From Owenia fusiformis (taxonomy: Eukaryota > Annelida > Polychaeta > Sabellida > Oweniidae): a stretch of 64,000 bases of DNA. Location: contig CAIIXF020000008.1 of assembly GCA_903813345.2 (NCBI GenBank), positions 6,147,341 to 6,211,340 of the forward strand, in the 5' to 3' direction. Of this stretch, positions 1 through 58,280 are shown in pieces. Position numbers and translations under genes: made by a program. The notes beneath the pieces were generated by a model, which saw nothing but the letters and a program-made list of their open reading frames with translations, was not told where the DNA came from and made no database searches. Each line of letters starts with the position of its first letter. Position 1 is the first letter of the stretch.

Positions 1-152
1 GTTAATGTTACTGAAATATTGACCATTGCCACTTACTCATCTGAAAGAAATGCATAATACATGTACTGTACATGTGAGCTAAGAGAATTGCCAAAAGGCA
101 TTTTCCATACAGGCCAGATTTTTTGATATTTTTTTTTATTTGATTCTTTCAG

Positions 153-3100
153 AATGACAAAATCCCACCATTACTGAAAGAACAGAAGCAATTAAAAGGA
201 GAGTTTGTTCCATATTTCTTGAATTATTTACGAGACCAGAGTCTTCATCTCTTACAAAACAGCAAATCAACAACAGTCACCCCAGCAAAGACTCCAGTCG
301 GGAAGAGATTAAAAGAAGTCCCAAGACAAAGTACACCAATACAAAACCAAGGACGTGGAAAGCAACTTTTCCCAAACACAAATCAACATGACATTTCATC
401 ATCTTCTATTGATTCGCCTAATTTATATGGAAGCTCATCTAAAGGCAATGGCCGACATAACAATAAACAAACTCACACAAATGATGGCCAGAATAAACCC
501 GATGGGTCATTCAAATATGAACAGCGATCCAGACAGCGGTCGTCCCTTGGTGAGTTCTTTAGAACACCAGAAATTGAGCGTAGAAAGAAAAAATCTCCTA
601 GTCCAAATAACCAGAATTTCAAGGATGATGATTCACCTGTGTTAAACAATCGTAGATCTACTGGTAAAGGCAGTGGTCCTACAAAATCTCCATGTGCAAC
701 AGTACCTCCACCTGTGTTCAACCTGACTATGGAAGAGTTCCCATCTCTGGGTGGAGGAAAGTCAAATGATGCCAGGTAAGAGACCAAATACGTTATTTGT
801 AATTTGTTTAATTTTCATTGAAATCAAACACTACATAACTCTGATTGTTTCAGAATATGCATTACAATTGAATGTCAATGTATACTTATTGATCACCACT
901 CATATGTTCAATCATTGCACATATTCTATGCATACTTCAAGATTTAATAATTCCTCATCTCTTAATGATATTTGCAGTTTAGTCGTTTTTATCTCTTATA
1001 TATTATGGTCTCAATTTACATGTTTACCTTGACTCTATATTTATTGCTTTAAAATTGTAAAACCTTTTGACTTCTACAAAAACATGTGTCACCCATATAT
1101 TCTTTTTCAGTATTCAAGCTCAGATGGGACCATTGAGCCCAGTAGATGAAGAGACGAGTGGGGCAAGCACTACATCTACCACACAGAGCTCTTGCAATAA
1201 CATTAACCCAGCCAACACTCTCAATATAAAACCTAAACACAATGGAATTAAAGATAACACTGAAAACGAAGTACCTAGTTGTAAAACAAAGGATTGGGAC
1301 TCAAACCAGCGTCTTATATCACCAGGGGGAACTTTCCTACAAGGAAAGAAATCAAATGACTATGTGTATACTTTAACTGGAGATATTCAAAAACTATCAC
1401 CAAAATCGCCGAATAAGAACAAGAAGGGTAAAAATAAGAGAGCAAAGTCTCCGTTAGTTTCAGTACTGGACACAAAACCTCAACCAACGAGTGCTGTAAT
1501 AAAACGACTGAGTCTTAATAAACCGTCATTACCTGACGAATCTAAATCTGACACGTATAGTACAGTTAACCAGAAACCAACAAAGAAGTCGGACAAACCA
1601 AAACGAATGGCTTTTACTACTTTAGAAAAATATGAACCAAATACAGAACCAACCAATACAAAATCAGACTCCAAAAGAATTGGCTTCACAACCATTGAAA
1701 AGTATGAAACCCAGAATACTGGCAAGTCAAGTGAATTTTCCAAAAGGCGAATTATTCCTACAATGATTGAGCCTCCGAGTGATAAAAATGCTTCTAAATC
1801 TCAATTAATTGGTGGATTATCATCATCATCAAATACAGGTTCGGCCAAGTTTGTTTGTGCTACAGAGAAGACTAGTGGAGTTGAGGGGGATATAGAGGCT
1901 GAGAGAGAGCTCCTCAGGTAGTTAAAATCATTCTTGCGTGCAGAAACATTTTTTACTTTCCCTTGTGTACTGTTAAATCTAAAAATATTGACATACCTGA
2001 ACTCCAGCCGATAAATACAAATGTTTGTTGATATCCCATTGATATAAAGTTGGCTTTGATAATTCTGGGACCATTCATTTCCATCTCTTTACACATTGGG
2101 CATTTTATATGGAACTCATCATAAATGCTATGGCTGTGTAACTGAATTGAAAAACTGCTGAGAGCTACTCAGGTAAAAATCATTCTTAGCATTTATATCA
2201 TCCTCCTAAGCAGGTGTCCAGAATCCGTACCTCCTTCTTCCCCCTGCTATAAGCAGTTAGCATTTCCCCGATTAAGAACTCGCAATTTGATTGGCTGTCG
2301 CAACACTGCGACAGCAATCATGTATACGTCATCGGCGCATAATTAGATCACGTGATTCAGTTTAATCGGGTGCGTCCAACTTGGTTATAGCAGGGGGTAA
2401 AAAGAAAGAAGATATTCTGGATTTTGAAGCCCTGTCATTGGAGGATGCATTTATATGGAATTCATTATGAATGCTCATTATGTTAGTTGTGTAACAGAAT
2501 TGAAAAAACTGCATATATGTGTATATATATGATTTAAGAAAATCGTTTTCAATTTTCAGACAAGAAAGAACCAGACGAGAAAGTGAAAGTGGAGGTCCAC
2601 TTCCAACTCCAACAAAAACCCCAACAAAAGGACAGCTTGATCGACTCTTTAGTGTGGATGTTGTAAAAGCAGACCATGAGGAAGTGACATCTAAAAAGGA
2701 ACTTGATATTCTTGTGGAAGTCTACTGTGGTTGTATAAACAGTAAGTACTTATTCTTTCAATGTTGTCATAGTTTTTACAAAACACACAAATGAGAAAAT
2801 GTAATATTTGACTGAATCATAAGTTGCAAGTTTAAACGTAGGAGTGGAAATGGAAAAATATTTTTAAAATCCTTTCTTTTTTGCCCTTTTTTCTGAAAAT
2901 TTTAACCCACTTGATTTAATTGAACCCATGTTTCAAAATTCAAGGTCTACTTTTACGATAAATTGGCCTGTTTTTGAAAGTATAACCTATTTTGATGCCC
3001 AAAATTGCCCCCTCTAGATCAGCAAATAAATCTCCTATTGCTCCTTTATGTTTGGCCATTCCTCATGTGTAACTATACACACAGTTTAGTTTGAATTGTG

Positions 3101-9100: not shown

Positions 9101-12100
9101 ACTCATACTTTGAACTAATTATTGTACCTAATACTGAAATCTCTGTTAAAACAGGATTTTTATCACAAAATCAGCAGTTCCATGCTCTTTCATTTCAGTG
9201 GGAGATTAACAAGATGATTTATAAAACATACCATTCTCCCAAAACCATTCTGGGTGTTTATATATCCTCTCGACTGGTACATCAATATGTGGAGCTGTGT
9301 CATCTAACATGTTGTGTTCCCCGAGTCTCATCATCCACTGTTTAGTGTCATTATTAACATCACTACCAACACAAGAATATGAGTTAAATATGTATATTTT
9401 AGTAAAAGTCAAAGTTTTTTTTAGTCAAGGTCAAGTTAGTTTTCTAAAAACACATTTTTCCTGTTTTTACAGGGTGTTCAAAAAAAACGCAACCCAAAGA
9501 AATCGCTATATCTTGAGAAATACTGGTTCAATTATGTTCATATTTTCAGGAAATAAAGAAGAGATTGTGTATGTATAGCTCCTGTAAATGGTTAGTTGTA
9601 AAACATGATGCCTTGGACACATGCTCAAAAGACAGTTGTACTAGGAAAATACGAAAAACGCAGTCAGGGGTGACTGCAACCGGAAAAAAACTAAATAACT
9701 TCCTAACTATAGTGTTTAGGCTCTTCAAATTTGGCACAAATCATCTTCAATTACTGAATGGTAAATCTGTAAAGTGAAATCAAAATCACTTCAGGGACTT
9801 TACAGTCATGGTCAAAATGCTTTCAAATCGCAGTCAAACGCCCTGGTTCAGGGAGACTTAAGAAGGCATTTTGACCATGACTATAAAGTCCCTGCAGTGA
9901 TATTGATGAAACTCATCAGATTCACCACACATTGAATGAAGATAATTTGTGCCAAATCTGAAGTGCCAAAACACTGTGGTTAGAAAGTTATTTGGTTTTA
10001 CTGCTGTGGCAGTCACCTCTGACTGCGTTTTCATATTTTCCTAGTACAACTGTCATTTGAGCAGGTGTCCAAGGCATCATGTTTTACAACTTACTGACAA
10101 CAGGAGCTATACATACATAGCCTTTTCTTTCTTTTCCTGAAAAAATGAATATAATTGAATTAGTATTTTCCAAGATAAAGTGATTTTTCATTAACGTTTT
10201 TCGTATTTTGCTAGTATAACTGTCTTTTGAGCAAGTGTCCAAGACATCATGATTTACAACTAACTAACAGCAGGGGATATACATACACAGTCTCTTCTTT
10301 CTTTCCTGAAAATTTGAACATAATTGGATTAGTATTTTCCAAGATATTGCGATTTCTTTGGGTTGCGTTTTTTTTTGAACACCCTGTATTATTGGGAATG
10401 TTGTGTTGAGATATGTTCAGAATGAACCAGAGAGGGTCTAAATTTGAAAAATTCCTGGGGGCTTGCCCCCAATCCCCTAGATTGCACTTCGCGTGCGGTG
10501 CTCTTCACGCATGACCCATCCAGACCCAAAAGTCGCCCCCTCCCTTGGCAAATCCTTCCGACGCCCCTGGCTACTGTTCAATACTATTACTTACATGCAA
10601 TGGGCTGCAGTGAGAACCCATTGTGGATGTATCAGTGAGCCTCCACACAAAAATTCATATGACATGTTTGAACAGTTACCGATACAACTGGCATTAAGAA
10701 TATCATAAGGTAAAGGGGTAAATCTCATGTTCACCAGCCATGGCCATTCGCCAAGTTGCGAAACCTCTCCACCTACTATCCTCTTTTGACGGTCTCCAGA
10801 ATTCCTCATGCCACAGTGAGAAGGAATAGCTAAATGAAAAATATTAAAGTGATTAGGAAAATACATTAGACGTATTTCTTTGTTCCTGTCCATATACACA
10901 AAACTATCATACCTTGATATTAAACCAACCGGGAAATCTCTAAAAATGTCTTGCATAAACAGAATCATTGAGAAATCCCTTAAACTTAAAGCATACAAAT
11001 TAGTAATGATTAGTTAAACATACGCTGTAGTTTCACTTCGCTTGTTTCCTCACTACTTTCTGCTTCTATTTCAGTTCCATTGCCACCTTTAAATTGGTGT
11101 ATTGCATTCTCAATGCTATTCTGTTTTGGCTGGAATATAAAGAGAATAAAAGCATTATCCAAACTTTAACATTTTGTACCAAAAGTTCACTTTATTATAG
11201 ATAAACCAGATATGCAAAGATAAGGAAACTCACAAAATTTTCATAATATGGCACTCAATCCTAATTCTATTTGACCTATTATGGTCAAAATATTGCAATA
11301 TTTCACTGAATAGATCAAATACCATTGGATTTTCTTCATACTAAAGGAAAATGAATCATAGCTAATTAAATTGTGATGTTATAGGGATATCTAATATTCC
11401 TACCTTTGCCTTGACTGCAATAACCAGGATATACAGTGAAACAACTGACTTGATATACATTATCTGGAAAATATATATACGAGGGGTGATCCAAAAGTCT
11501 TGGACGCCCTGCTCTAATTTTGTTGGTTTTTGATAAAATTACTTTAAACTTTCCAATAATAAAGACCAACAACCTAACTACTTTGTGTATTTATTTCATG
11601 GAGAAATGATATGTTTTATGTAGTTTTCTAGACAGTTTTTAATATGGGGACCCTGCCACCCGGAACGGTATTCACACATGACAACTTTCAGCCTTAAATG
11701 TTGCAGCCATTTGACTTGTTTCGCAAGTCTTGACCACTGTCTTTCTTTGAATTGTGAATGTTAAATCATGTTAGTTTACTTCCTTTCTTACTAGGCAACC
11801 AACTAATTGTGTTTTAATTAAAATGTCCCATATGACAATGATCATATCTGTCACATTCTAAGAAAATGACAAGACAAGCAACCCTCATTCTGGTATCATT
11901 TTTGCTCCAAAATGGCTGCTGAAATGCAGAACATGAAAGAAATCAAAGTGGAACAAAGAATACTACAATATATTTTCACTATTATTGACCTTTAGCAGCT
12001 ACCATATGCACAATACAGTCTAGATATGGCTCCATGTGATTTTCTTCCTTTTCTCGAAGTTGAAAGGAGGGTTGAAAGAAAATGTTTTTTTACTCATTGG

Positions 12101-24312: not shown

Positions 24313-27300
24313 ATGGAATTTGGCAGTGACTTCATCTATCTTCCAAAAGATGGCATCACAGATGAGTATGATATGGTACCAGAGGAGGAACTTATGTCCC
24401 ATAAACTTACAAGAAATCCTACCCATGCTTCATCAAATGATGATGGAAAGGTACATATAATTCTTTGAGTTTTTTGTATGGTATTAAGATATTGCCTTCT
24501 TTTAATTCTTTTCTCTGATTTTACGTATTGGTCTAGAAAGTTGTAGTTATCTATTACAGTATACAATAAATGAACAAAACATAATTAAACTAACTACTAT
24601 CTTACATATTCAATATTCATACTCATACATAGTAGATACCGACACATTACGCTTTCTTTCCAGACATGTCTTCTTGATATCTTAGATACTGCAGGCCAGG
24701 AAGAGTATTCTAACATGCGTGATGCCTACATGAGATGTGGTGATGCGTTTGTTATTGTATACGATGTTACCTCCAGAGCAACATTTGAGGAGGCTCTCTG
24801 TATCTGTCAGTGGATAAAGCGAATAAAAGATTCAGAGAATATAAGCGCAGTGAGTATAAAATAGTCAAAGTGTGTATTAAGTCCTGCTTATAAACAAAAA
24901 AAACATTACGTCAAGCTTGTAACTGAGCTTCCTAAACAATCAGCATTTGAAAAATACTTCAGTGATCTTTACAATTCAAACACTTGAGCAATTAGTGTCA
25001 CATGCATCTCAAACACCTCAACAATCAGCACTACACTATGTTAGAACTTTAACAATCAGAGTCATAACCTTTAACAATCAGCACCAATATCAAACACTTG
25101 AGTGATTAGCATCATATGCATATCAAACAGACAATCAGCATTTCATCAAACACTCAGGATCATAAAACTTTCAGCAACATTTGTATTGCAGTTCATAATT
25201 TTAACTGCAGTGTGTGTTATTTTAGGTGTTATGTGCCAACAAGATAGATCTTAATGAGCAACGTGATGTTCCAACCATTGATGGTATCCAGAAAGCTAAG
25301 GAACACAATCTTGGTTACCAGGAGGTATCTGCTAAGACAGGGCAGTCCATATCACAACTATACCATGAAGTTATCAAACAAACTGACAGAAATGGTGCTG
25401 AATATAAGGTATATTTACATTGTACATCATATTTGATTATTTCCACATTATACTGATATAACTCCAGAGACATTATTGCTACTGAGATTGTCCCTTCCGT
25501 ACCAATATTTTCTGTATTGCGACGGATATGATCAACAGGGACAATCTCATACAGATTGGTACAGCACAAGAACTGACCAATCAGAGGGCTTCATTTTACA
25601 GATCATACGATAATCAGTTTTACGTATGTCCTATCGACCCTATTTTATACCACATTGACACCCATATTTAATATTCTGAATATACAAGGGGCGATCCATA
25701 TATTCTGATAAAAATGCTCTCATTTTGTGATTTTTTTTCACATATCCCTCTAATTTTTCAGAACTTGAAGATTATGTAATTACACATACATTACTAAAAT
25801 ATTATAGCTATATCTTAAACTATTTTTGAGATAAGGTTGCCATGGTAACCTGTATTTAGGGTAGGCAGGTCAGTTAAGTTATAACGTATAAAATAGATTT
25901 TGTTAATTTAATCATTCCTCGGTTCCTATTTCAAGCAGATCAAACGCATTATCCAGGTCATTACCAACTATTCTTTGAACTGCTCCATACCCCTATTGCC
26001 CTTGTTTGCTATTTCCACATTGGAATAGTTCTTTTTTCATAATTTGCATCTCAAATTATCATAGTGTTATTCTCTGTCCGCAAGCTCTTCTTGCAACCAG
26101 ATTGAGAATGATATTCAACAGTGACTAGCCTTCCTCAAATTTACAATACTACCTAGAGATCCTTAGAGCAGATATAACACCTTGTCCATACACTATACGA
26201 GTCCATGTATGTCTCTGGCAGTGTCCTCTTACTTATTCTTGATAGTACATAAAATCTAATGGTACTCCTAATGTATCTGTTAATGTCACACTCTACAACA
26301 GCCGCACTAACCTCATCTGATCTGTCATTTTGATATTTGGTGTGTCTCATGACATGTAATTTCAATTTGCCAATCCTGTCATACATTGCTATTGTGAGTT
26401 GTTGTGATGTTATAATGATCACAAATAAACATTGGTTTAGCAACAAACAATGAGAAACAATACCAAACTTTTTTCAGAAAAAATGAATGATATCTGCATG
26501 CTTTAAAATAATTAAAATAACAAGTTATTATGATATTTTATATGTTATAATTTAAGTGACCTGCCTACCCTTAATACAGGTTACCATGGTAACCTTTTCT
26601 CTTAATTAATTTAAGATGTAGCTATAATATTTGAGCATTGTATGTGTAATTACATAATCTACATTTTCTGAAAATATGAGATGGATATGTGAAAAAATAG
26701 CAAAATGAGAGCATTTTTATCAGAATATATGTATCATCTATGAGTTGGTTAAATTATGTTTATGTATTTCTTTCTGTTCACATTGAACTCTCTTAGAGTA
26801 TTGTAATTTGAGATAAACGTGAGTGCTGTAGTGATCGTCACAGTTATGATATTTAACATTTACACTATAACATAGGTTGTTATGCTGGGTGCAGGGGGTG
26901 TTGGGAAATCAGCCATCACAGTGAGGTTTGTTGCTGATGTCTTTGTGGATGAGTATGACCCAACCATAGAAGACTCATATAGGAAACAAATCGTCATACC
27001 TGATATTCCCAAACATAAAATGAAAAGTAAGCTTTCAGATGATATATAAGAGTATTTTAGTAAACATGTTAAGTTTAAGTTGAAATAATGGGATTTTAGA
27101 AACATATGCTTAAAAATATGCTTTTAGTTTATACATATCAAAATAGACCCATATCCCCAATGACATTTTCTTTTAACATAGAGGTCAAGAAAAGAAAGGA
27201 TGGTCTTGCCAGAAAGCTTAGTTATTTACTGGACAAGAAGCATTCTAAGGTATCAACAGCTTCAACCACATCCTGCCCTATGATACGATGTCCCAAGGCA

Positions 27301-30300
27301 TCATCAAACTGCATCCTGTTGAGATTAGGTTCAATAGCAGAGCAGGTGAACATTATGACTGGAGATCCAATGAATTGTGGGAAGTGTGGTATTGTGATGT
27401 CACACTTGTCAAGTTTACAAGAACGAAATGGCAAAGTGTTATGGCAGTGGTAAGTCTTTGGTCAAATGTTAAACCGTTGCTATCTGAATTAAAAAGCTCA
27501 ATGTCTGTTGTATATAGAGAATTGATTCAATAATTGTAAATTTAGTCATTTACATTCTAACAAATGAATTTAAATATTGCATTATGAAGACTCGTGGAAA
27601 GGCACCTGTCATATAATAATGGTGAAATATTTTTAGTGAATTCTGTGATTACAACAACATAGATATAGATATTGATGCAAATGAGATGCCAACTCATCCA
27701 GATGTTGATTACATCATATCATCACCAGATGTCACTGCACAGGAAGTAACAGGACAAGGAATTCTGGTCTACTGTGTTGACGTTAGTGGCTCGATGTGTA
27801 TGAGTACAAATATTCCCTCATTACAAGGTGAATAATTGAGTTAGATAATTGGTTTAGTTTTATGTCACCACCACAATAAAAATCAATAAAAATGACTTTT
27901 TATTGTGGATGTGTTCCGTGGGTGGTGTTTGACAGTTGGTGTTCAGCAGTCCGCATTTGGCATCTGCAACAAATGGTGACATCTTGCATGTTAATGCCCT
28001 GTATTTGTTTATTCAACATTCAACATAAGTAGCGTTTAATTACTTTGATCATTCATAATAAGTTGGTAGCCCTGCGGTAGAATGCTAGCTTAGCACGCAG
28101 GCGGGCCGGGTTCGAATCCCACAATCACTTTTTTATTTTTTTTTAACTAAATGATTGTTCTTTGATATTACGCAGTAAAATAACAATTTTTATTTACAGA
28201 AACTTTATATTAGAGCTTGAAAATTTAAAAACAATATATGTCAACATATTGCGTTTTGGAGCTATGTGCAGGTTTAAGTTTTCAGTTTCATTTGAATGTC
28301 CACCTCATGCCTGACTGCACCCCTGATCACATGAAGCATTGTATTCATAAAATACTAATTCCAGGTCTACAATACAATTACATATTATTCTACACACTGT
28401 TTTCTAGCTGAATGGAGTAGCATTAGAAGCGGCTCTATTAAGAAGCAGTACATCTCTAGGCTTCAATGTGTACAGACAGCAATAAAGAGGTATAGTTTGT
28501 CCAACTGATCATGTGGTATGTGTCACCATAATTTCCAAGAACAGCTTTCCTTTTTGACATCCATATCTTGTTTGTGCATAGGCCTTTAATACAGATATTT
28601 GTTTTACCTAAGAACTATTGTTATTACATCTTTGTAACACACACTTATCAACTCAATAGAGTAAGAGATTACAATTACGATATACTGTGTCTACTGTACT
28701 TAATAATCATATATTAAGCAGCGATAAAAACGTGATACATTGTACCAATAATCTTGTCACCATAGCTGCAGATGTGCCTGATAATAGTGACAGTGTTTCT
28801 AAAAAGTTGGCAACTAACCTTCCAGGCAACTAGAAAGATTGAAGATTGAAAACCCAGAGAAGCGTGTTGCTATGGTAACATTTAGTAATGATGTCACAGT
28901 ACTAGGGGATGCTGACGGTGTACCAATAACTATTGCTGGAGACAAACTTGAGGACTTTGACAAACTTATTGCTGAAGGGTGTGCTCTTGGGAAGACTTTG
29001 AATATAGATTGTTTGGCAAGATCGGACAGGTGCGTCGAAATGACTTTGAGTTTTACAAAAAACAGATATTTAAAAGATGGATATTGGTAATAAAAATATA
29101 TTAATGTAAATATTAATATTAGTATATTAATATAAATATGAAAAAGATGGATATTCATTATCCACATAAAATGTTTGATTTCAAACAAAGTGTAAATGGT
29201 ATCAATCTTTGAATGTTTAGTTTTGTGAAATATTTTTTAATTTAACATCTTCATTCAGACTTCATTTTGAAGAGATTTATGAAAAGTATTTCTATTTATT
29301 TAATCTACAGCAATCTCTCAAAGAAGATTGATGAGCTAGAGGAGGGAGGACAAACAGCTCTTGGACCTGCTCTTGCTATCTGTGCCGGTTTAGTGTCTCA
29401 CTCCCCATGCTCAGAAATAGTGTTGTGTACAGATGGACTGCCAAATATTGCACTTGGAGCTTTAGATGATCCTCAAAGTGCAGATGAGGCATTTTATTCC
29501 AAGGTAAGTGTGTCTCATATGTTTAAAGCAAAGATGTGGCCAAACCTGTCTGATAAAGAGATCATGGTACATTAAATACCCATACCCTGACGGCAAAGAT
29601 TAGTTACAGAATAATGTTAGGAAATGAAGTAAATGGGTAACGGGGACTTACAGAGGTACATACTGGTTCACTGGTTTTAGTATACAGTATACAATTATTG
29701 ACCTCTCCATTCGGTTTACTGTCAAAATTATATCCCGAGACTGTAAACCGAGACCGTAGTCTCGGTTTACATTCTCGGGATATAATTTTGACAATAAACC
29801 GAATGGAGAGGTCTATAATTGTTTTGTTAGTCCGAAGAATATCTTAGATTTTTCTGACCCTTGAAGTTGACTTGAAGTTGGATGCAGACCCTCGAGACGT
29901 TCATGTTGTATCTACATCTGCCACGGCAGTAAGTTCACTCAATGGAGTCAAATTACTCTCCTGGGCGAAGTCCACTAAAAGCTTTGTACAAAGTTTTAGA
30001 TTTTTCTTCGTATTTTGACTGTCTTTACTCTCTAAGAGACTAATAATATCCTCATCTTCAACATTTTTGAAACGGCTAGTGCTAGCGGCGGCCATTTTAT
30101 CGTCTGATAATGACGTCATTTTAGTGGAATGCTGGGAATATTATTCACCGGCAATGCATTGCGCGGTGTACAGTTAAAATTATTCACCGCTCGTTGACCA
30201 ATCAAAATCGAGTATTTCAACTGAGGTACTAACAATAAAACCTGTCTCAGTGGAACATTTTTGGTACCTCTAAAAAGTGTTCCACTTGGAAGGTGTTCCA

Positions 30301-32977
30301 CTTATAGAGGTTCATTAAACATTAAGTCAGTTGGTCTGACTGAAAAGTGTTCCACAAATAGGGGTGTTCCACTTGTAGGAGTGTTCCACTTTACAGGTTT
30401 CACTGTACTTGTACACTGTATCTGGTTTTAGATAGGGAAATATGCTAGAGGAAACCAGACAAAGATTTCCATCATAGGAATAGAGGGTGAGGAGTGCCAG
30501 ATAGAAACAATAGGACAATGTGTCACAGAAACATCAGGGACCATCAACATTTTGAATCCGTTAGAGCTGATTCGACAATTGAGACTCATCTCCCAGAATC
30601 CCACAGTGGCAACAGATGTTATTTTGAAATGTTTCCTCCATCCTGATATGCAGTTTGAAAGGGAGGTGCGTATAATTTGTGAATAAGTTTGTTGTGCTAT
30701 TCATTGGAACCCTCATTAACAAGAATCAACCTGTAAATGATTATGTCAGGAACCTCACTTAGGACCTTAAATAAATACAAGGCATTAACATGCAAAATGT
30801 CACCACCTGCCATTTGTTTCAGACAGAACACCAACTGCAAACACCAAGCACCAAACATTGTCCACAAAAGTTAGATACTAAAATAGTTGGAGACTATAAG
30901 AATATGTCGCAACCATGTCATCACTTCTGGTAGTGACATAATAGACTGCATACCATGTTAAAAGATTTGAGATTTACTTGTGTACATGAGAAATATTTTA
31001 TATTTCAGGACACCAACATTGTTGAGAGAGCCATCGGAAATGTTACCAAAGACATGGATGTAACGTTTAGTTTCAAGTCCAGTGAGCATACTGACAGAAA
31101 GAGAAAAAACATACCTTTCCAAGTAAGATATTCAACGCCTTTCCTCAAGGAATTTTTAAACATATATTAAGTTATATATAATGATTTCATTCCAAGGGTC
31201 AATGTTACATATTATACAGATAAAATTGCAGTGAATCATTTTATCAGAAATGCAAACTGTATGATCTACCAGCTGAGGGTTTATGTTACATTACATTACA
31301 GGCACAACAGAAGTTACAGAAACCATACCTTTACCAGCTGTCACTTAGTTGCCTAGGTAATTTCTTACTGTTCTATTGTGTTTTAGGCACAGATAGTTTA
31401 CACAAGACCAGATGGTATGAAATGTATGAGGGTAATTACAAAGAAGAAAAATACAACAGAAGAAAGATTTAAAATGGAACAGGTACATTGTAATTTTTTC
31501 ATGAATTCATTGAAGACATCATATTTTGAATTTTCATTGTTACTTTACTCCTTAGGGGGTGGCAGGGGTATGTATGTATCATGTCTAAAAACCGCAAGTG
31601 AAAGAAATCTTACTTTTAATTTTGTCCAGTTGGTCAGTTGTTTGTCCTAATTTGGTAACCCTTCAGCCTCACATTCAATGTACCACAGCTAACTTAAAAT
31701 CCTGAATCTGGTACAGCGTGTGACCTAAACTTCGTCGTGTATAAATAAATAGTTGTAACATATTGTTAGAGTCTCCAACTCTTTTTGTCGACAGTGTTGG
31801 AACTTCAGTTTCTGTAACAAGTGGTAGGTGGTTACATTTTCATGTTATATAATGCCTTGATGTTTGATTTTTTAGACTGTCAATGTTGCTGTAACGGGGC
31901 TTGCTTGTGTACAAAGATCAGCTGATATAGCACAAAAGGGAGAATATAGTGAGGCCATGAACCATATGTAAGTACATATACCATATGTAAGTACATATAC
32001 CATATGTAAGTACATATACATACAATCTAGCTTATAGTGGTTCCTTAGATGAGAATTATACAATTATATGTTGAGATTTTAACCTCATATGTCCAATAAT
32101 GGTACAGGGTTATGTGAGGTTATGAACTCGACAGATCATTCTGGGATTGTAGACCCTGAGACCATTCTTTTAGTTGTGAATGTACAGGAGAATGCCCTTG
32201 GTTCTACAAGAAGTGGGCAATTTTACTGTGAAAAACCTACCATTTGTAACAGACACCAACCACAGAACACCATCCACAAAAAGTTGGAGACTATAACAAT
32301 ATGTCACCACTTGTGGTGGTGGTGACATAATAAAACAAAATGTCAACACTTGAGGTGGTCATGACGTAATAGTAAAATGGGAGATCACACATATATCTAG
32401 TATAAGTCTCCAATATATTTCCAGTTTGTCAGTAGAAAGGCTGGTTTCAAGAGGGGCCCATCTCAATAGCCAGATGGAGGAACAATATAATTTTAAAACA
32501 GAGAGTGAGGACTTGAGACAAACCCTCTTTGAATGTGAACAAAAGGTAATGTCATGTATAATATTTATATCAATACGAAACCCATTTCTTTTCGTATAGA
32601 GGATGGAGGCAATGACGTCCATGTAGGTAATTACCGGACAAAGGAAGGCCTGCATTGAGTGTCCGACAATTACCTACATGGACGCGTTGCATCCGTATAC
32701 TCTATATTATAATCACTGCGATATAGTGTTTTAATGAAGATATGCAAGACCGACAGAGATTTTGTACCATGTATTCTATTGCATTGTAATTCATAATTGC
32801 ATGTATTCCTATTTTCAGAAGAGCAATAAAACATCAGACAATGTGTCCAAACTTTTCCACACTAAGAAGTCCTGTTACCTTGGACAGTTTCTAAGTGGAG
32901 CTGCTAAGAAAGACCTTGCGATTAAACGCAAAACTGATGATTCTCTGAGGAGACAATATTATGACTACAGATATTAA
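24313..32977 (+). CDS. Circularly permuted Ras GTPase fused to Sec23/24-like zinc finger and VWA
   Basis: 15 coding exons (24313-24450, 24664-24849, 25226-25408, 26876-27026, 27182-27449, 27637-27827, 28408-28489, 28826-29029, 29311-29503, 30432-30665, 31009-31122, 31387-31482, 31876-31967, 32425-32545, 32819-32977) total 2412 nt, 803 residues plus TAA, fully in phase. The G motifs occur in the order G3 (DTAGQE, 54), G4 (NKID, 113), G5 (SAK, 143), G1 (GAGGVGKS, 174), G2 (YDPTIEDS, 196): canonical Ras cut before G3 with the termini swapped. The Ras Gly12 and Gln61 equivalents are intact, so GTP hydrolysis is likely. Next come a CxxC-x20-CxxC zinc finger (285-312) and a VWA domain with MIDAS DVSGS (357-361) and TDG. 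No CaaX box. The family matches circularly permutated Ras proteins known from Dictyostelium and invertebrates. Cellular role unknown; a Sec23/24-like trafficking role is inference. Confidence 0.92.
25685..26735. mobile_element. Long-TIR mariner-related element
   Basis: The left end is TA then CAAGGGGCGATCCATA, like the 11480 mariner end (CGAGGGGTGATCCA). Arms of about 230 bp (25693-25930 and 26505-26735) are inverted copies sharing CATATATTCTGATAAAAATG and GGTTACCATGGTAACC-type blocks. The right terminus is degraded. No transposase recognised inside. It lies between the G5 and G1 exons of the permuted Ras. Confidence 0.7.
27861..28002. repeat. Dispersed TGTCACCACC-family copy
   Basis: TATGTCACCACCACAAT to GCATGTTAATGCCCTGT, starting 34 bp after a VWA-exon donor. 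Confidence 0.75.
28061..28129 (+). pseudogene. tRNA-Ala(AGC)-like sequence
   Basis: A-box-like GGTAGCCCTGCGGTAGAATG, anticodon region GCTTAGCACGC with AGC, a perfect B box GGGTTCGAATCCC and a following T run suited to Pol III termination. The acceptor stem pairs poorly, so this is a tRNA pseudogene or tRNA-derived SINE head rather than a working tRNA. Confidence 0.6.
29691..29822. repeat. Near-perfect 132-bp hairpin palindrome
   Basis: Two 64-nt arms differ at three positions around a CGTA loop; the ends are ACAATTA / TAATTGT. Probably a foldback MITE. It sits in an intron of the Ras-VWA gene. Confidence 0.85.
30231..30409. mobile_element. MITE with GTTCCACTT tandem motifs, copy 1
   Basis: AACAATAAAACCTGT ... 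ACAGGTTTCACTGTA ends with several internal GTGTTCCACTT units. Sister copy at 40257-40422. Confidence 0.65.
30778..30948. repeat. Dispersed TGTCACCACC-family copy, inverted
   Basis: AAGGCATTAACATGCAAAATG to GGTAGTGACATAATAG; ends 60 bp before the exon at 31009. Confidence 0.75.
31755..31860. repeat. Dispersed TGTCACCACC-family copy next to an acceptor
   Basis: GTAACATATTGTTAGAGTCTCC to CATGTTATATAATGCC; ends 15 bp before the exon at 31876, so it supplies the upstream part of that 3' splice region. Confidence 0.65.
31961..32017 (+). repeat. 3 x 19-bp repeat that triplicates a splice donor
   Basis: Unit ACCATATGTAAGTACATAT, starting inside the coding exon, repeats three times exactly. Each unit contains AT|GTAAGT, so three equivalent donors stand at 19-nt spacing. 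Only the first (exon end 31967) keeps frame with the next exon. Confidence 0.85.
32236..32331. repeat. Dispersed TGTCACCACC-family copy, inverted
   Basis: CCTACCATTTGTAACAGACA to GTGGTGGTGACATAATA, followed by a short degenerate echo to about 32370; 93 bp before the exon at 32425. Confidence 0.7.
32595..32706. repeat. Hairpin palindrome
   Basis: Core arms CGTCCATGTAGGTAATT (from 32616) and its complement (to 32684) with looser flanking pairing (TATAGAGGAT / ATCC...CTATA). In the last intron of the Ras-VWA gene; likely a MITE remnant. Confidence 0.7.
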
Positions 32978-34607
32978 CCCAACATGGGAGCAGAGAATAT
33001 ATTTTATAGAAGAGGTCAGTTAATCTCAAGACTGAATTGAATTTGAATTATTGCTAGAGAAAGCTGTGTAAATTACATGGTAGCCATTTTGCTCTTTAAG
33101 AGTGCAACATTTATTACTCTGTATCTTGTTGGGGAATTGTATGTACTGTTATAAACCACATTATTGTGATATCAATTTATGCAATAAGCAATATATTTTC
33201 ATAATACTTGTACATTGACTTGTGACTTCTGAATAAATCAATACACTTGTAACTCAAGCTGACATTAAATAAGAAACACAACGTAACATTGTCCAGTTGG
33301 ATCTTCATTTTATTAATATTGGCACATAAAAATGTACAAAATACAAATTGGAATGTTTATATATCAGCTGTGTCAAAAACAGTAAAAAATAAACTTTAAA
33401 CCATCAGGGGCATATTACCAGAAGACTTTGTAAACATGAAGAATGTATTCTTCTCGTTAATTATACGGTTACAACAGTGCATTTGGGGTTCAAAATGTTT
33501 TGGTAATATACTCCTATGTAACAGTCTATGAACTGTACAAATTAATAATCATTGTATATATGGCACAAATCATCTGTAAATTTTTTATTCTAGTATTCAT
33601 CATTTAAAAGATGATTGATATTGATTAATGATTACATAATTAAATTGCACTTGAATTGTTACATCATAATACTACAATTTTACATAATAGCACCACAGTG
33701 TACACTATTTACTTATCTGATAATACAGTTTAAGTCACATTGTTAAAAATTTCAATCTTACTTTCAGCTTTACAATTTGGAAATACATATATAATGTATA
33801 ATGCCTCAGTCACATTTGATCTACGGCAATGCACGGCGCATGTAGCTTCCCAAAATCGAGAGAAATATGCAGCATAAAACATATAGAATAAGCAGTATGA
33901 TGTAGATTTTCTATGACGATTTTGTGAAGCTACAGCCGCCAAAGAGCAAATGTGATTGAGGCTTTATTACAGCAAAACCTTATATCTGATCAACTCTAAT
34001 CTGAACACCTCTCAATATGAACACTCTCTCAGTTGAATTTTTGTAATCGACCATTGACTACCTCTTTAATTAAAGAAACACAGGGAACAACTACTATTCT
34101 GAACACGTTAAAAAGCCTAAATCCTCAAACACAATGCATTGCTGTAATACATAACTTACATGTCCAAGTGGTGTTCCAATTAGACAGCTTTAACTGTACC
34201 TTTAAAAGCACTGTATAAATGATGTATATATTTACTCTTGCAAAATACTGTATATCATTATAATTGAGCGATAATGTACTTTGTATGGAAAATGTATTCA
34301 GTGATCTCCCCAGTGCAAGATCAACTGGGTCCGACATGTCATTGATCAATCTGTTTGCATCCTGTCCAAAATATGAAATATTGAGGAATTTGGTAAAAAT
34401 GAAGTTTTTGCACCCTGTTGGTAAAAACCTGGGGAGATTACTGATGTTTCACACATTAATGCCATGCTCACATTTACTCTTATATTCAGTACTGGTGCTC
34501 AGCTGATGAGCATTTTGTTCAAAATTGAACAAAATACTCATCAACTAGGTGGCAGTGTTGAAGATCAGAGCAAATGTGATGATGGCATAAAGCTAAATCT
34601 CAGAAAT
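32978..34607. other. 3' region between convergent genes
   Basis: Contains the Ras-VWA 3' UTR with a candidate AATAAA at 33232-33237. A family B MITE lies at 33802-33962, in opposite orientation to 5553-5732. A TIR relic lies at 33970-34200 (CAGCAAAACCTTATATC ... AGCTTTAACTGTA). No ORF supported. Confidence 0.5.
33802..33962. mobile_element. MITE-like element, family B, copy 2
   Basis: GCCTCAGTCACATTTGATCT to AAATGTGATTGAGGC, with CTTCCCAAAATCGAGAG inside; reverse-oriented relative of 5553-5732. Confidence 0.7.
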
Positions 34608-52700: not shown

Positions 52701-55700
52701 TCAGGGAAACAAGAATATCTCTTAACAAGAATGATGAATCAATCCTTTAATCATTGATTATATAAATTTAATGATTCATGCCTATCACATATAAGGTACT
52801 TATCATGTCCAAAGGTGTATACCTCTATGTTATATCATTGATTTTTGATTTGTGAACTATTTTGTGAGACGATTCCGATGATGCAAAGGGAATTCATATA
52901 TATTTGTATTTATTCTATTGATTTTCTGCCACTATAGGCCTCATAGGATCTAGTCTACTCACATAATCGCTCTTCTATGTGCATCATGCTAGAACAGAAA
53001 TTAAAGAGAACCCATACATCACTTTTATGTTTCTTAATTCTATTTTCTTGCTTCTAATTATCCTGGTCTTAACAATTGTTATAGCACCTTGAATTGTTCA
53101 CTTAGTATTGTTATCATCTAGAAATGGGCAAGAATTTTTATTGATCTGTAAGAATGTAACTCCAAAGTGTGAAAATATGTTATTAACCATGCTTATAGAG
53201 TCTTAGTCATAAGAACATAAATTACAATATAGTTCGGACATAATTCGGATTTGAAAATGATGTATATGTAAGACTTTCAAGACATTGTTCTAGGCATTCT
53301 TATGACATATTACTGATGAAGCCTATATAACAAAGGGCAAGGTTTGAAAAATAGCAACTTGAAAACCTTAAAGAGACAGTACAATGTCCAAACGTTTTGT
53401 CCGGTATGGACATGCCACCTTTCTTGCCTCTGCAGACACTTGATTCACATAGGATTTCTAATTGTTCATGAGTTGCTTCTTTACATATCAAATGAAAAAT
53501 GACATGCATTTTAGGTATGTGGAACAGATACTCCAAGAAAGTTTGCAGAGAAGGAATGCACTCATTAAAACAGCTCTGATGATGAGGTTATTTGGAAACA
53601 CACAATTAAATGGTTCTCTGTATGTCCTTCATAATGGTTTCCTTCAGTTTAAGCCAAAATAAGTCTTCTTCTTCTGGAAACCTAGGTGCCTTTAAATATG
53701 TCTTTGTAGCCAGAAGACTGCGTAATGTTGGGGTGACTAACTCTCTGGCAAGTCTGGCTGGTTCATCTAATAATATTAACACTACAATATCTGTCGTGCT
53801 ATCCAAAAGTTTGTTTCTAGCCATTTGAAGCTCAAAGTAACACCATTTACTCTGCAAGAAATTATTTGAGATAACGAGAACCGCCTTATGACTTTCTTCA
53901 ATGCTCACGACAATGTTATCTTGAATGTCATTTCCCGGAGTGAAGTCTCGTTGATGAAGACATAGTTTCAAACCATGCTCTCCTTCCATCACAGAATGAA
54001 GATTTCTAAGCACCCATTCATCATCATTAGCACTGTATGACACAAATGCATCATATTTATATGTTTGATTATGATTTTGTTTGCTTCTTAAAGCTTTCCT
54101 TACTGATTGCTTGGCAAGGAGCGCATAATATTGGAGGCGCCATCTTTTCTTATATATTACCAGTGTTACTATAAGAATGAGAATTGTAGTTAGTGACGTC
54201 ACAGTTATGGCGATTATGAGTGGCATATGGCATTTAATTCTGAGATCATGTACATCTATATCCAGAAGGAGCATCCTTTTTCCATGATAAATGCAGGTAT
54301 ATTTTTCCAAATCGTTAAGAGTCACATTGGTTGTTTGGCACCATTCTATGAAGTCGACAGTTTCGCAACTGCAGATTAATGGATTATTCAACATATCAAC
54401 AATTAAACGTTTATTGCTTCTTGCAGTTGAATTTTTCTTTAATCCTGAGTTTATTCTGTCTAATATTTCAGTGAAATCTTCACTCAATCTGCTGATCATG
54501 TTGTTAGAGACATTAAGAAGCTCCAATCTGTAGTTATTAGAGAGGTTCACGTCAAATATGACAAGATTATTCTGGCTGACATTCACTTCTCTGAGATAGG
54601 CTGCATCTATGAAAGAATCCTTAGAGAGTTTATCTATGTGGCTATCTGCAAGGTCTATCACATTGAGGTGGTGGCATGACTTGAAATGATTATAGGTATT
54701 GTCTGTTTGGTTAAATACTTGATACAGGTTGTTTCCTCCCATAAGTAATGTCCTTATGTTTGGCCAGTGTTTGCAGTCAAATACATCATGTGTCACCATC
54801 GTTGTATCTCCATTTTGAAAATTGAAGTACTCAAGATGGGTCAGATTAACAAAGTGACCTCTCACTGACCCCACATTCGTGTCACTCAGGTGTAATTCAC
54901 GGATGTTGTTGCGACAAAACAAAAAATTGTTGATATCAATGAAGTGGCGGTACCAGGTTGAGTGGCTGAAAAATACTAATTCTAGTCCAATAGGAACAGG
55001 CATACATTGGTTTCCATCTAAATGGACATCAATTCTCCCAGGCCCTATGTGACCATGGACGTTGAAAGACGCATCAAACAACCGCATCTTCTGCAGAGAT
55101 AGAAAATTCAAAAGTAATGTCAGGCGTTGGTTTGGGTCGATGTAAACGAAGAAATTAAATCCAATGTTCAAGTGTTCAACATTTGGTATGAAATCTGAGA
55201 ATCCTGGTTCTAGGCTTATTATATGGTTCCAATATAATGAAAGAGTTTTAATATTGTGCCTCTTTAAGACTTGAAGTTTTTCATTCCTTATTTGGTAAAT
55301 TCCTGAATTAACCAAAAAGTTCATATTATCCAAGAAAGCATGCTCTAAAGTCCCATTGGGTAAACTGTCTATGGCTTCAAATCCTTTGTCCAACAGCAGC
55401 CGGAATGAATCTGAGAATGCTAATGTTTTCAAGTTTGTTAGTGATGTGAATATATCTGATGTTATATGTTGTAGCATTGAACATTGTCTTATATGTAGCA
55501 CCTGTAGATTAATGAGTCCAGTAAAGACTTCCTTGTCCAGGCTAGTAATGCTTGTATTCGAAATATCCAAATATGTTAATTTTGAGTATTTCTTCAATGG
55601 AGGAATATAAGTAATAGGGTTATTTCTTACTGATATGCCATTAACTGATGTTGGTAAATCAGGAAATGTTTTTAAAGCCAGATTGTCACAATTGATTGTA

Positions 55701-58280
55701 TTTAGCAGCTCATCAAAAATACAGACATTTTTGTGTACATGTTCAATCCTAGTGTTATTCAGATCAGCTGTCACATTTTTGCGGTTATGTGTTTCAATCA
55801 CATTTGTTGCAGCATTTTGACGATGTTCAACGCTATAAATTGCACATGTGATATATTTTTGAAGCAATAAAAACACTAACAAGTCATATATGAATCCTAG
55901 TGTCTTGTTGTTTTCCATCACGTCATAATGTCTTAAATACGCAGATTCTTAAAATTCTCAAATTTAACTCATTCCTTTCATACACCTGAATTAAAACTGT
56001 TTCAAGTAAGAACATAATGATACCCTTTGTACATTTGTGTGTATGAAGTTGTTTAGAACATCTCTGTTGTTTCAGTTCGTTAACTATAGATTGTTATTAC
56101 TTCTAGGTGGGGCAGCTTGACTTTGGTGAACTTCAAGTTTATGTCATCTTTCTGAAAGAAATGAATGTCACATTCAGCATCAGTTCATGTCAACACAAAC
56201 GTTATTTTATTTTTATATAGTTTATGAACTCTGGTCATTGTCATTATTGTCATTATTGTTATATTGTCATTATTGTCATTGTTGTTATATTGTCATTATT
56301 GTCATTATTGTTATATTGTTAAAGTACCAACTAGAATCAGATAAGAAACAAGAACATGCATCATCTAATTATAACTAAAAGTTCAAACCTTCTGTTGGCC
56401 TCTATTAATCAATGTTAATAGATGTTATCAATCACAATATCCTTTCAAATTTTATTCTATGAATTTTAACAGTTTTAGACGTGATCAGTAGTTTGGCATA
56501 TTACTGTATGATCAGTACTTGAGGCTACAACAATACTTTATGATATAAACTTACCAATATCTTCTATATTGTTTAGTTTTAAGCCATCTTGTATCATTGA
56601 ACACTATGTTGTCTCATGGTCCAAGTGGTGATTATATGTTCTTGTGGTGTTGATAACTTATCTATATCAACAGTTACAGGACTTTCTTAGAATTCAGCCA
56701 TAACCAGGAAGTTAGGTGTACCATTATGGCTGGAGCTATGTATTCTTATTTAATTTAGTACTTAGAAATTGTTTAAACATTAACTTGTTTTAGGGTTTAA
56801 TGCCCTTTGAATGAGGTAAGTTATAAAAAGGGTATTTTTGGTCTTAAAAACAAATGTTTGAGTTCATGATGATCTTTAACTTAAACCATCAATGGTTTTG
56901 TGAAAATATCTATGCTTGAAAAAATTTAAGAAAAATAAATGTTTTCAGAAATTTTTTTCACTGAATTTTCTAGGTTTTTATACATTTTACTAAACAAATC
57001 TTCTCACCAGTCTTCTAGGCACATAAGTGCACTCTTAATGCAAAACTGGAATCATAACAGAAACTGCAGGTTTATTTCAAAGTATATCAATGGTGCAAAT
57101 TACATGTAGTTGGGACTTTCAATATTTTCAGGTATAAAGGGTACCCAGGGTTAGACACTGAACCTTTAAATGTATTCATACAGTATAGTATCCCACTATC
57201 CAGAAACATAGACACTTACCCATTACACATTTTATGTCACCACCACAAGTGGTATTTTTATTGTAATGGTCTCCAAGTTTTTATGGATGGTGTTCGAAGG
57301 TTGATGTTTGGCATTCATCAGTCAGTGTTCGGTGTCCGTAACAAATGTCAGGTAGTGACATTTTGCATGTTAATGCCTTTCTAGTAAAATTCAGTTTTGC
57401 ATTCATCCTGAAAATCTTGCTTTACATGAATCAGCAGTTTTGCAAAAAACCGATTCTTACATATGATACAAGGAATGCAGGGTGATGTTTACATAGAATA
57501 GTGAAAGAGATTCTCCTGTCATCGACAAAAGTAGGGATGTTCACAAAATGCAAATTGGTAATCAATAAAGCCAGTTAGTTAAAGGTCATGTCTATCTTAT
57601 TAATGCTTTGCTGTTGTATTGTACCTTTAGCTTTATGATATCAAGTTAATTGTCCGTTTATTTATGTCTCACGGCTTCCTCAGAAAATTGAATTTTGGGG
57701 AAAGTACTTAGTGAATGAATTTTTCTAAAGGTTGATATTCATCTAACTTGATATACATGTAGTGCTCTCTTTAATCATTATAAGCCACGTTACCTCTTTT
57801 CCCTCACGTTGCTAATAATACAGAAAGATGTGTTGAGTATCCAAATGTATTTTTGATAATTTTGAACTTCGTTTGTTCCTCATAGTATTCACTCCTCCTC
57901 TAGGAGGGCAGACAAAATAATCCTAAACCTAACAGAGACAGAATTTTGATTTTCACTAATTCTGTAGGATTTGTCACAGAATCAACACATTTTCAGAAAA
58001 AGTTAAAAATTTGATGAATTATCAGTGACTTACCATGATAATTTTCCAGTTTCATTTCTGGTACAGTTCTACCCAAAAGGAAAAAATAATTTCAAACAAT
58101 AGTTACACTATTGAAATTGCACCCATGTGGCAGATTTTCTTCTGTTAATACCCTTTCTTTGTTTTCAGAATGTGGTGGACTATAACAGGTAACTTTGGCA
58201 ACATACTTCCAATAGACTGGTCAAAGTCATACGCCAGACAACTCCATACACAGGCACTAAACCTCAATGAAAAACGACTG
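46800..58280 (+). CDS. FEZ: FEZ1/FEZ2 (UNC-76) homologue, first two coding exons
   Basis: Exon 1 is 46800-47110 and exon 2 is 58169-58280; they join in phase (CA|A) and the second ends in phase 0 at a GTAAGT donor. Start ATG at 46800 gives MAELRFEAPL. Exon 1 has SLEDLVNTFDEKLSKCF, close to the FEZ1 SMEDLVNEFDEKL block. Exon 2 has GNFGNILPIDWSKS and LNLNEK, matching the conserved FEZ2 NYGNVMPVDW and LNLSEK parts. FEZ proteins are kinesin-1 adaptors for axonal cargo transport. The coiled-coil C-terminal exons are not in the window, so the model is partial. A minus-strand Toll-like receptor lies inside intron 1. Confidence 0.88.
47170..49230. mobile_element. 2-kb DNA transposon relic with long TIRs
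   Basis: The ends CACTCTGTTAAGCATGATAA and the inverse are flanked by TA. Arms 47170-47455 and 48946-49230 are nearly identical inverted copies, with one about 27-bp segment (CATTCATGAGATAACTCTTT type) well kept, and similarity fades over a further 150 bp inward. The interior (47600-48800) is AT-rich and shows no transposase. In FEZ intron 1. Confidence 0.8.
49770..51520. mobile_element. Long-TIR element built of CCATGG palindromes
   Basis: The ends CACTGCCCTTAAG and CTTAAGGGAGTG are inverted. Arms of about 220 bp (49770-49995; 51300-51520) are packed with CCATGG/CATGG words every 8-15 bp. A third cluster lies at 50400-50600. The middle is plain AT-rich DNA, with a hAT-MITE fragment near 51115 (CAGGCCCGTAGCCAG). 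No coding region recognised. In FEZ intron 1. Confidence 0.75.
51521..53605. other. FEZ intron 1, no feature recognised
   Basis: AT-rich sequence with purine-rich stretches near 52080-52460 and a 31-bp direct repeat (ATTAAAGACAATAGCATATC, about 52468 and 52505). It probably includes the TLR 3' UTR. Short ORFs here have no family features. Confidence 0.4.
53606..55918 (-). CDS. Toll-like receptor, intronless coding region
   Basis: 770 residues from the ATG at 55918; an upstream in-frame GTG is not a plausible start. Order: hydrophobic N-terminal signal region (about 1-28), an N-terminal Cys pair (CIFDELLNTINC), about a dozen leucine-rich repeats (LTYLDISNTSIT, LQVLHI, LELLNVSNNMIS), an LRR C-terminal cap with CSC...C...C just before the membrane, a transmembrane helix at about 565-589, then a TIR domain at 622-770. 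TIR box 1 YDAFVSYS, box 2 RDFTPG (Arg657, Pro661) and box 3 FW are all present, so signalling through MyD88-type adaptors is expected. A single membrane-proximal cysteine cluster makes it a vertebrate-like (sccTLR) type. Ligand unknown. Antisense within FEZ intron 1. Confidence 0.95.
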   Translation of the reverse strand: MENNKTLGFIYDLLVFLLLQKYITCAIYSVEHRQNAATNVIETHNRKNVTADLNNTRIEHVHKNVCIFDELLNTINCDNLALKTFPDLPTSVNGISVRNNPITYIPPLKKYSKLTYLDISNTSITSLDKEVFTGLINLQVLHIRQCSMLQHITSDIFTSLTNLKTLAFSDSFRLLLDKGFEAIDSLPNGTLEHAFLDNMNFLVNSGIYQIRNEKLQVLKRHNIKTLSLYWNHIISLEPGFSDFIPNVEHLNIGFNFFVYIDPNQRLTLLLNFLSLQKMRLFDASFNVHGHIGPGRIDVHLDGNQCMPVPIGLELVFFSHSTWYRHFIDINNFLFCRNNIRELHLSDTNVGSVRGHFVNLTHLEYFNFQNGDTTMVTHDVFDCKHWPNIRTLLMGGNNLYQVFNQTDNTYNHFKSCHHLNVIDLADSHIDKLSKDSFIDAAYLREVNVSQNNLVIFDVNLSNNYRLELLNVSNNMISRLSEDFTEILDRINSGLKKNSTARSNKRLIVDMLNNPLICSCETVDFIEWCQTTNVTLNDLEKYTCIYHGKRMLLLDIDVHDLRIKCHMPLIIAITVTSLTTILILIVTLVIYKKRWRLQYYALLAKQSVRKALRSKQNHNQTYKYDAFVSYSANDDEWVLRNLHSVMEGEHGLKLCLHQRDFTPGNDIQDNIVVSIEESHKAVLVISNNFLQSKWCYFELQMARNKLLDSTTDIVVLILLDEPARLARELVTPTLRSLLATKTYLKAPRFPEEEDLFWLKLKETIMKDIQRTI
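55919..58168. other. TLR upstream region and rest of FEZ intron 1
   Basis: Holds a 3 x 26-bp minisatellite of ATTGTC/TTATATT words (56234-56319) and a dispersed repeat at 57232-57379. TLR promoter elements are not evident. No further ORF supported. Confidence 0.5.
57232..57379. repeat. Dispersed TGTCACCACC-family copy
   Basis: TTATGTCACCACCACAAGTG to GCATGTTAATGCC; one of the most complete copies. Confidence 0.8.

Follow-up and report, generated by a model that had tools for sequence, protein, structure and literature searches.

A Circularly Permuted Ras Gene of Owenia fusiformis with a C-Terminal Half That May Be Akin to Sec23/Sec24

A gene of the annelid Owenia fusiformis encodes a Ras-like GTPase domain whose G boxes stand in permuted order, and this domain is followed by a zinc finger and a VWA domain. 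A preliminary description had found the latter arrangement reminiscent of the finger-trunk order of Sec23 and had raised the idea of a COPII coat subunit carrying its own GTPase. We analyzed the window (the whole stretch of 64,000 nucleotides in which the gene lies) together with the 498-Mb genome of the species (G000), in which the window lies on C8 and which served for all own-genome searches. A search for COX1 gave no match.

Gene structure and the permuted Ras domain

The coding gene, which we refer to as cpRAS-VWA, occupies positions 24313..32977 on the plus strand and comprises 15 exons (24313-24450, 24664-24849, 25226-25408, 26876-27026, 27182-27449, 27637-27827, 28408-28489, 28826-29029, 29311-29503, 30432-30665, 31009-31122, 31387-31482, 31876-31967, 32425-32545, and 32819-32977). 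The coding sequence of 2,412 nt specifies 803 amino acids with no internal stops, and the 14 introns are GT-AG introns with coherent phases; the 15-exon model of the preliminary description had the same length and is upheld. An in-frame TAG begins 18 nt 5' of the ATG, and the GC content is 0.405 in exons versus 0.331 in introns. Since the splice sites were picked by eye, the GT-AG borders cannot by themselves serve as independent evidence for the model. It is independently backed, because the Ras homology crosses the three exon junctions within the Ras domain without a gap (phmmer alignment to HRas) and because a paralogue in the same genome matches pieces of residues 258-632. When the whole protein was used to search the genome (45 matches; 56 of 94 candidates scored), the exons of the gene itself topped the matches, and no further Ras-like exon was found in the window. 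With the Ras domain as the query (153 matches; 150 of 302 candidates scored), three of the matches listed fell in the window and corresponded to exons 2, 3, and 4, in permuted order; none of the window matches listed could restore the canonical order. The possible poly-A signal AATAAA at 33232-33237 says little, as this hexamer occurs 171 times on both strands of the window (146.8 expected). Judged from its sequence, the coding gene is in good order.

Three of the introns contain repeat-like or RNA-like features. Intron 3 carries a MITE-like element (25693-26735) with inverted arms of 141 nt that are 88% complementary and lie 638 nt apart, flanked by outer arms of 65 nt (82% complementary). 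A foldback in intron 9 (29691-29822) has 64-nt arms that are 95% complementary, with 4 nt between them. By eye, intron 6 includes a tRNA-like stretch at about 28060-28130, perhaps a tRNA-derived SINE, which was not called by ARAGORN or Rfam; ARAGORN returned no match, and neither did Rfam at the gathering threshold.

The permuted Ras domain spans residues 44-210 (exons 1-4 including introns, 24442..26998, plus strand) and matched the Pfam Ras model with an E value of 6.4e-44, split into two pieces. Alignment revealed that HRas residues 47-162 correspond to residues 44-160, with one single-residue gap away from the exon junctions, and that HRas residues 2-46 correspond ungapped to residues 166-210. 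The domain is cut once, between HRas residues 46 and 47, which is the beta2-beta3 turn. The HRas alignment and a motif check placed the boxes, all on the plus strand, in the order G3 (DTAGQEE, 24685..24705), G4 (NKID, 25238..25249), G5 (SAK, 25328..25336), G1 or P-loop (GAGGVGKS, 26888..26911), and G2 or switch I effector loop (YDPTIEDSY, 26954..26980). The last of these is identical to HRas, as is the longer stretch of residues 196-207 (HRas 32-43). HRas Gly12, Lys16, Thr35, and Gln61 are kept as G176, K180, T199, and Q58, respectively. The reported order of the boxes across exon boundaries and the retention of the Gly12, Thr35, and Gln61 equivalents are thus borne out. An intact catalytic core had also been proposed, and the nucleotide-binding and catalytic motifs of this Ras G domain are apparently complete.

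A phmmer search of the PDB with the Ras domain returned 804 distinct sequences at an E value of 0.001 or better, the best being 7jhp_A (3.1e-45), and all 60 of the matches listed from these 804 were H-, K-, or N-Ras. Identity to 7jhp_A extended to 32 of 45 columns over HRas 2-46 and to 52 of 117 columns (including one gap) over HRas 47-162. The NCBIfam matches were to GTPase models of a general kind and, weakly, to a chelatase model. The protein resembles canonical Ras (HRas, KRas, and NRas) in its five G boxes and agrees with the best PDB chain in 84 of 162 columns but differs in being permuted and in having no CaaX box. Its C terminus reads DYRY; the absence of a CaaX box had been noted in the preliminary description, and a canonical prenylated Ras is ruled out. 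The YRG (YawG/YlqF) GTPases likewise are circularly permuted P-loop GTPases but have an order of their own, G4-G5-G1-G2-G3, with another cut site (PMC2430557). Membership in that group is ruled out: here, G3 precedes G4, and G1 and G2 come last.

The permutation itself is not new. Circularly permuted Ras proteins had been referred to as a known but little-studied family, and indeed Elias and Novotny (2008; PMC2430557) described the same permutation and named it cpRAS. They reported cpRAS joined to a four-cysteine finger and a VWA domain, the latter called the Sec23/Sec24 trunk by Pfam, so the arrangement, including the name of its trunk, is already known. According to the same source, the hosts of cpRAS are amphioxus, sea urchin, sponge, and several unicellular eukaryotes, a scattered phylogenetic distribution, and VWA-finger proteins without cpRAS are on record too. 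The annelid protein shares with the CPRas1-type (cpRAS-VWA) proteins of that paper the order G3-G4-G5-G1-G2, a TIE-type G2, an N-terminal stretch, a linker, the four-cysteine finger, and the VWA/Sec23-trunk half, although it is shorter (803 versus about 840-970 amino acids). Its G domain is preceded by 43 residues versus 40-66 unconserved N-terminal residues in the CPRas1 type, a comparison by lengths in which no orthologue was aligned. From these features, the gene is almost certainly an animal member of the CPRas1-type family. PMC2430557 relates an earlier claim by Anand et al. that such a permutation would prevent proper folding, and the cpRAS domain contradicts this claim. What we offer as a new lead, from sequence comparison, is a putative beta-sandwich match, shared by two paralogues, together with the placement of a basic linker; in a word search of the main text of PMC2430557, beta-sandwich, MIDAS, and polybasic were absent.

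We also searched the literature in full text, with most subscription papers and preprints outside the reach of the search, and found, among the papers listed, no experimental or biochemical study of a cpRAS protein; GTP binding is for this reason inferred here. The name appears as a table annotation in papers on abalone circRNA, Physarum primers, Naegleria fowleri proteomics, and the eel transcriptome, and a 2021 N. fowleri genome paper cites PMC2430557 in its reference list. Among the papers listed by one of these searches, PMC2430557 and PMC5125639 apart, the letters mean something else, as judged from titles and abstracts. Peptide patterns made from one or two sequences were matched in viral contigs and prokaryote genomes, with no relative confirmed, which is a weak negative.

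The finger, the VWA domain, and a weak likeness to Sec23/Sec24

The C-terminal half carries a four-cysteine finger, C285-x2-C288-x20-C309-x2-C312, encoded in exons 5 and 6 (27376..27646, plus strand, a span that includes the intervening intron). It is followed at about residues 350-545 by the VWA domain (27758..30470, plus strand; exons 6-10), for which VWA_2 (1.4e-6) was the best single Pfam model of the C-terminal half and the sole one over its cut-off. All four cysteines are present, as are D357, S359, and S361 in the motif DVSGSM (27779..27796), T483 (29354..29356), and D509 (29432..29434), all on the plus strand. By the rules for such sites, these five residues presumably make up a full MIDAS, and the finger and the MIDAS-bearing VWA domain reported earlier are both found. 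MIDAS residues are kept in adhesion VWAs. In two Sec24 genes of the same genome, inspected by eye, the first motif reads DVSFN or DVSYN, S or I stands in place of the later threonine, and no counterpart of the aspartate could be made out. Because the MIDAS residues are kept here and look degenerate in these Sec24 genes, metal binding by the VWA domain is plausible, and less so in Sec24.

Pfam analysis revealed that three Sec23/Sec24 models match the protein in the right order, each below its curated cut-off: the finger at residues 282-316 (zf-Sec23_Sec24, E value of 0.01; 16.3 bits versus a cut-off of 25), the trunk with its best stretch at 482-571 (Sec23_trunk, 0.012, with no single stretch passing alone), and the beta-sandwich at 618-671 (PF08033, 9.8e-5; 23.3 versus 33.5 bits). 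The last of these falls in exons 11-12 (31030..31455, plus strand). With the C-terminal half alone as the query, the values were 0.007, 0.0042, and 6.8e-5, respectively. Decoys made from the C-terminal half (one reversed, two shuffled) gave nothing at an E value of 1 or better, and a Sec24 piece from the same genome strongly matched all three models. No Sec23 model matched any of three generic VWA domains of the genome at E values up to 1; as these pieces contain neither finger nor sandwich, this control tests the trunk only. When exons were searched apart, the own-genome matches to the trunk and finger models (E ≤ 0.001) and to the beta-sandwich model (E ≤ 1) did not include the window. Among the VWA exons of the genome, a dense cluster at 37.81-37.87 Mb of G000:C1 showed many equal scores and a spacing of about 1.9 kb.

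The own-genome search also identified one paralogue of the C-terminal half, on the minus strand of G000:C3 at about 4.636-4.650 Mb. Over that half, it is 37% identical and keeps the MIDAS residues, and its intron positions mostly differ by eye from those of cpRAS-VWA. Its joined exon pieces matched the finger (0.22), the trunk (1.3e-6; 28.6 versus a cut-off of 27 bits), and the beta-sandwich (1.1e-4) in the same order. A search for cpRAS in 26.3 kb at this locus, including about 7 kb upstream, found nothing better than an E value of 8. The paralogue thus represents, in the O. fusiformis genome, the cpRAS-less finger-VWA proteins of PMC2430557. At about 4.636-4.640 Mb, two exon-like segments, one from the VWA end and one helical looking, are tandemly repeated several times, through either exon amplification or assembly expansion.

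A profile of the C-terminal half was built from two sequences, cpRAS-VWA and the paralogue joined from exon pieces, and compared with 177,635 distinct PDB sequences. It returned 33 at an E value of 10 or better; the best five were Sec24A at 0.015, so none matched at 0.001. Sec23/Sec24 accounted for 10 of the 33, and no other chain in this list was named as a VWA protein. A further 21 were zinc-finger proteins aligned to the finger region, which we take from their names to be of the C2H2 type. In two of the alignments to Sec24A, the finger piece contributed about -2 bits. Nine of the 11 sequences found at E values up to 10 with a profile of the VWA region were Sec24 (best 0.057, not significant). 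By itself, a profile of the beta-sandwich retrieved no Sec23/Sec24 and two unrelated chains, and phmmer with the single C-terminal sequence gave nothing at an E value of 10 or better. Profile comparison (hhalign) favored the Sec24 of the same genome, with a P of 1.8e-4 and a probability of 48%, over generic VWAs, with a P of 3.1e-3 and a probability of 10%; the alignment to Sec24 was confined to the second half of the VWA domain.

The likeness to Sec23 suggested in the preliminary description holds in part: the three models for finger, trunk, and beta-sandwich follow one another in the expected order, and this is repeated in the paralogue, whereas every match in the cpRAS-VWA protein stays below its cut-off. 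The protein shares with the Sec23/Sec24 core of COPII the order of finger, VWA trunk, and beta-sandwich and has Sec24 as its best PDB match. It differs in the strength of these matches, in its MIDAS, in its N-terminal Ras domain, and in the helical (PF04815) and gelsolin-like domains. At an E value of 1 or better, the former was found in neither the protein nor the window, and Pfam did not find the latter in the protein; the separate Sec23/Sec24 loci that the genome carries do match the helical model. Membership in Sec23/Sec24 is rejected on these grounds. At most, the C-terminal half is Sec23-like, and we put the chance that it is distantly related to the Sec23/Sec24 core, or has its architecture in common with it, at about even.

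A candidate switch on its own scaffold and the competing explanations

Since the chain is cut at the beta2-beta3 turn, the new C-terminal end of the Ras domain is strand beta2, beside switch I, and it continues into a polybasic linker encoded by the end of exon 4 and the start of exon 5 (residues 214-236; 27008..27231, plus strand). Its net charge of +9 in 18 residues is the highest among all 18-residue windows of the protein, and its hydrophobic moment reaches 0.46. This basic stretch could substitute for the missing CaaX anchor. The authors of PMC2430557 described the linker as poorly conserved, which weakens the case for a conserved role.

We propose that the cpRAS-VWA protein may be a GTP switch built into its own scaffold. 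GTP/GDP exchange would alter switch I together with the interswitch strand, which enters the basic linker at its new C-terminal end, and the nucleotide state could be relayed through beta2 to the linker and scaffold. As a result, the platform of finger, VWA domain, and sandwich, serving as an adaptor, would bind membranes or partners differently, with the basic linker standing in for the lipid anchor. The CPRas1-type identity taken together with this mechanism falls a little short of an even bet; the notion of a Ras switch hard-wired to its own scaffold is itself advanced tentatively. If the C-terminal half is truly kin to the Sec23/Sec24 core, its function could be framed as a concrete hypothesis. 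Such a kinship would point to coat-type scaffolds of finger, VWA domain, and sandwich beyond COPII, and it would account for how a Ras could act at membranes with no lipid anchor.

The C-terminal half might instead consist of an unrelated zinc finger and a VWA module of the generic adhesion or scaffold type, with the Sec23/Sec24 likeness reflecting just the shared VWA fold; the protein then would simply fuse Ras with a scaffold and have no tie to coats. This reading, which we consider possible if somewhat doubtful, accommodates the lead of VWA_2 as the sole model over its cut-off, the retained MIDAS residues, a feature of adhesion VWAs, the preference of the finger region for C2H2 fingers, the negative beta-sandwich search, and the lack of a significant PDB match for the C-terminal half. 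It sits poorly with a beta-sandwich match that lies outside the VWA domain and reaches about 1e-4 in each of two diverged paralogues, with a trunk slightly over its cut-off in the paralogue, with Sec24 at the top of the PDB lists, and with generic VWAs of the same genome that have no trunk match. The opposite extreme, a divergent Sec23/Sec24 paralogue with its own GTPase that acts in export from the ER, draws on the colinear finger, trunk, and beta-sandwich matches in the protein and its paralogue. This was the idea raised in the preliminary description, and it is very unlikely: the helical and gelsolin-like domains were not found at an E value of 1 or better, the Sec23 matches lie below cut-off, the MIDAS is kept, the finger prefers C2H2 proteins, the G domain is that of Ras and not Sar1/Arf, separate Sec23/Sec24 loci exist in the same genome, and the scattered distribution of cpRAS (PMC2430557) misfits a core coat role.

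A switch built into its own scaffold also has to be set against a signaling protein whose permuted domain draws on the same effectors, GEFs, or GAPs as Ras, the role of the VWA part being confined to localization. Such sharing is suggested because the effector loop is identical to that of HRas, and the Gly12 and Gln61 equivalents are kept as well; the beta2/beta3 cut, however, adjoins effector strand beta2 and may disturb the predicted binding, and we regard this as rather unlikely. A misassembled or mis-spliced canonical Ras beside a VWA gene is scarcely credible. The model does come from genomic DNA alone, with splice sites chosen by eye, but the exons stand in permuted order in the DNA, the window has no second set of G boxes among the matches listed, and the same architecture has been published from unrelated eukaryotes (PMC2430557).

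The switch-on-scaffold reading can be carried one step further by analogy. The interswitch moves on GTP loading in Arf/Sar1. CPRas might be a one-chain version of the Sar1-plus-Sec23/24 principle, made from Ras and a MIDAS-competent sister of the Sec23/Sec24 core, in which GTP would move the interswitch, release or present the basic amphipathic stretch, and so recruit a coat-like adaptor to the membrane without a lipid anchor. The permutation then would be a functional invention and not a neutral accident. We consider this extension a long shot.

Several other features were noted in the window. Two long open frames at 144-1918 (plus strand), with no Pfam match at an E value of 0.01 or better, perhaps resemble codanin-1. 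A trypsin-like protease exon lies at 10594-11013 (minus strand). A Toll-like receptor gene at 53609-55948 (minus strand) combines leucine-rich repeats and a TIR domain in one intronless stop-to-stop frame of 780 residues.
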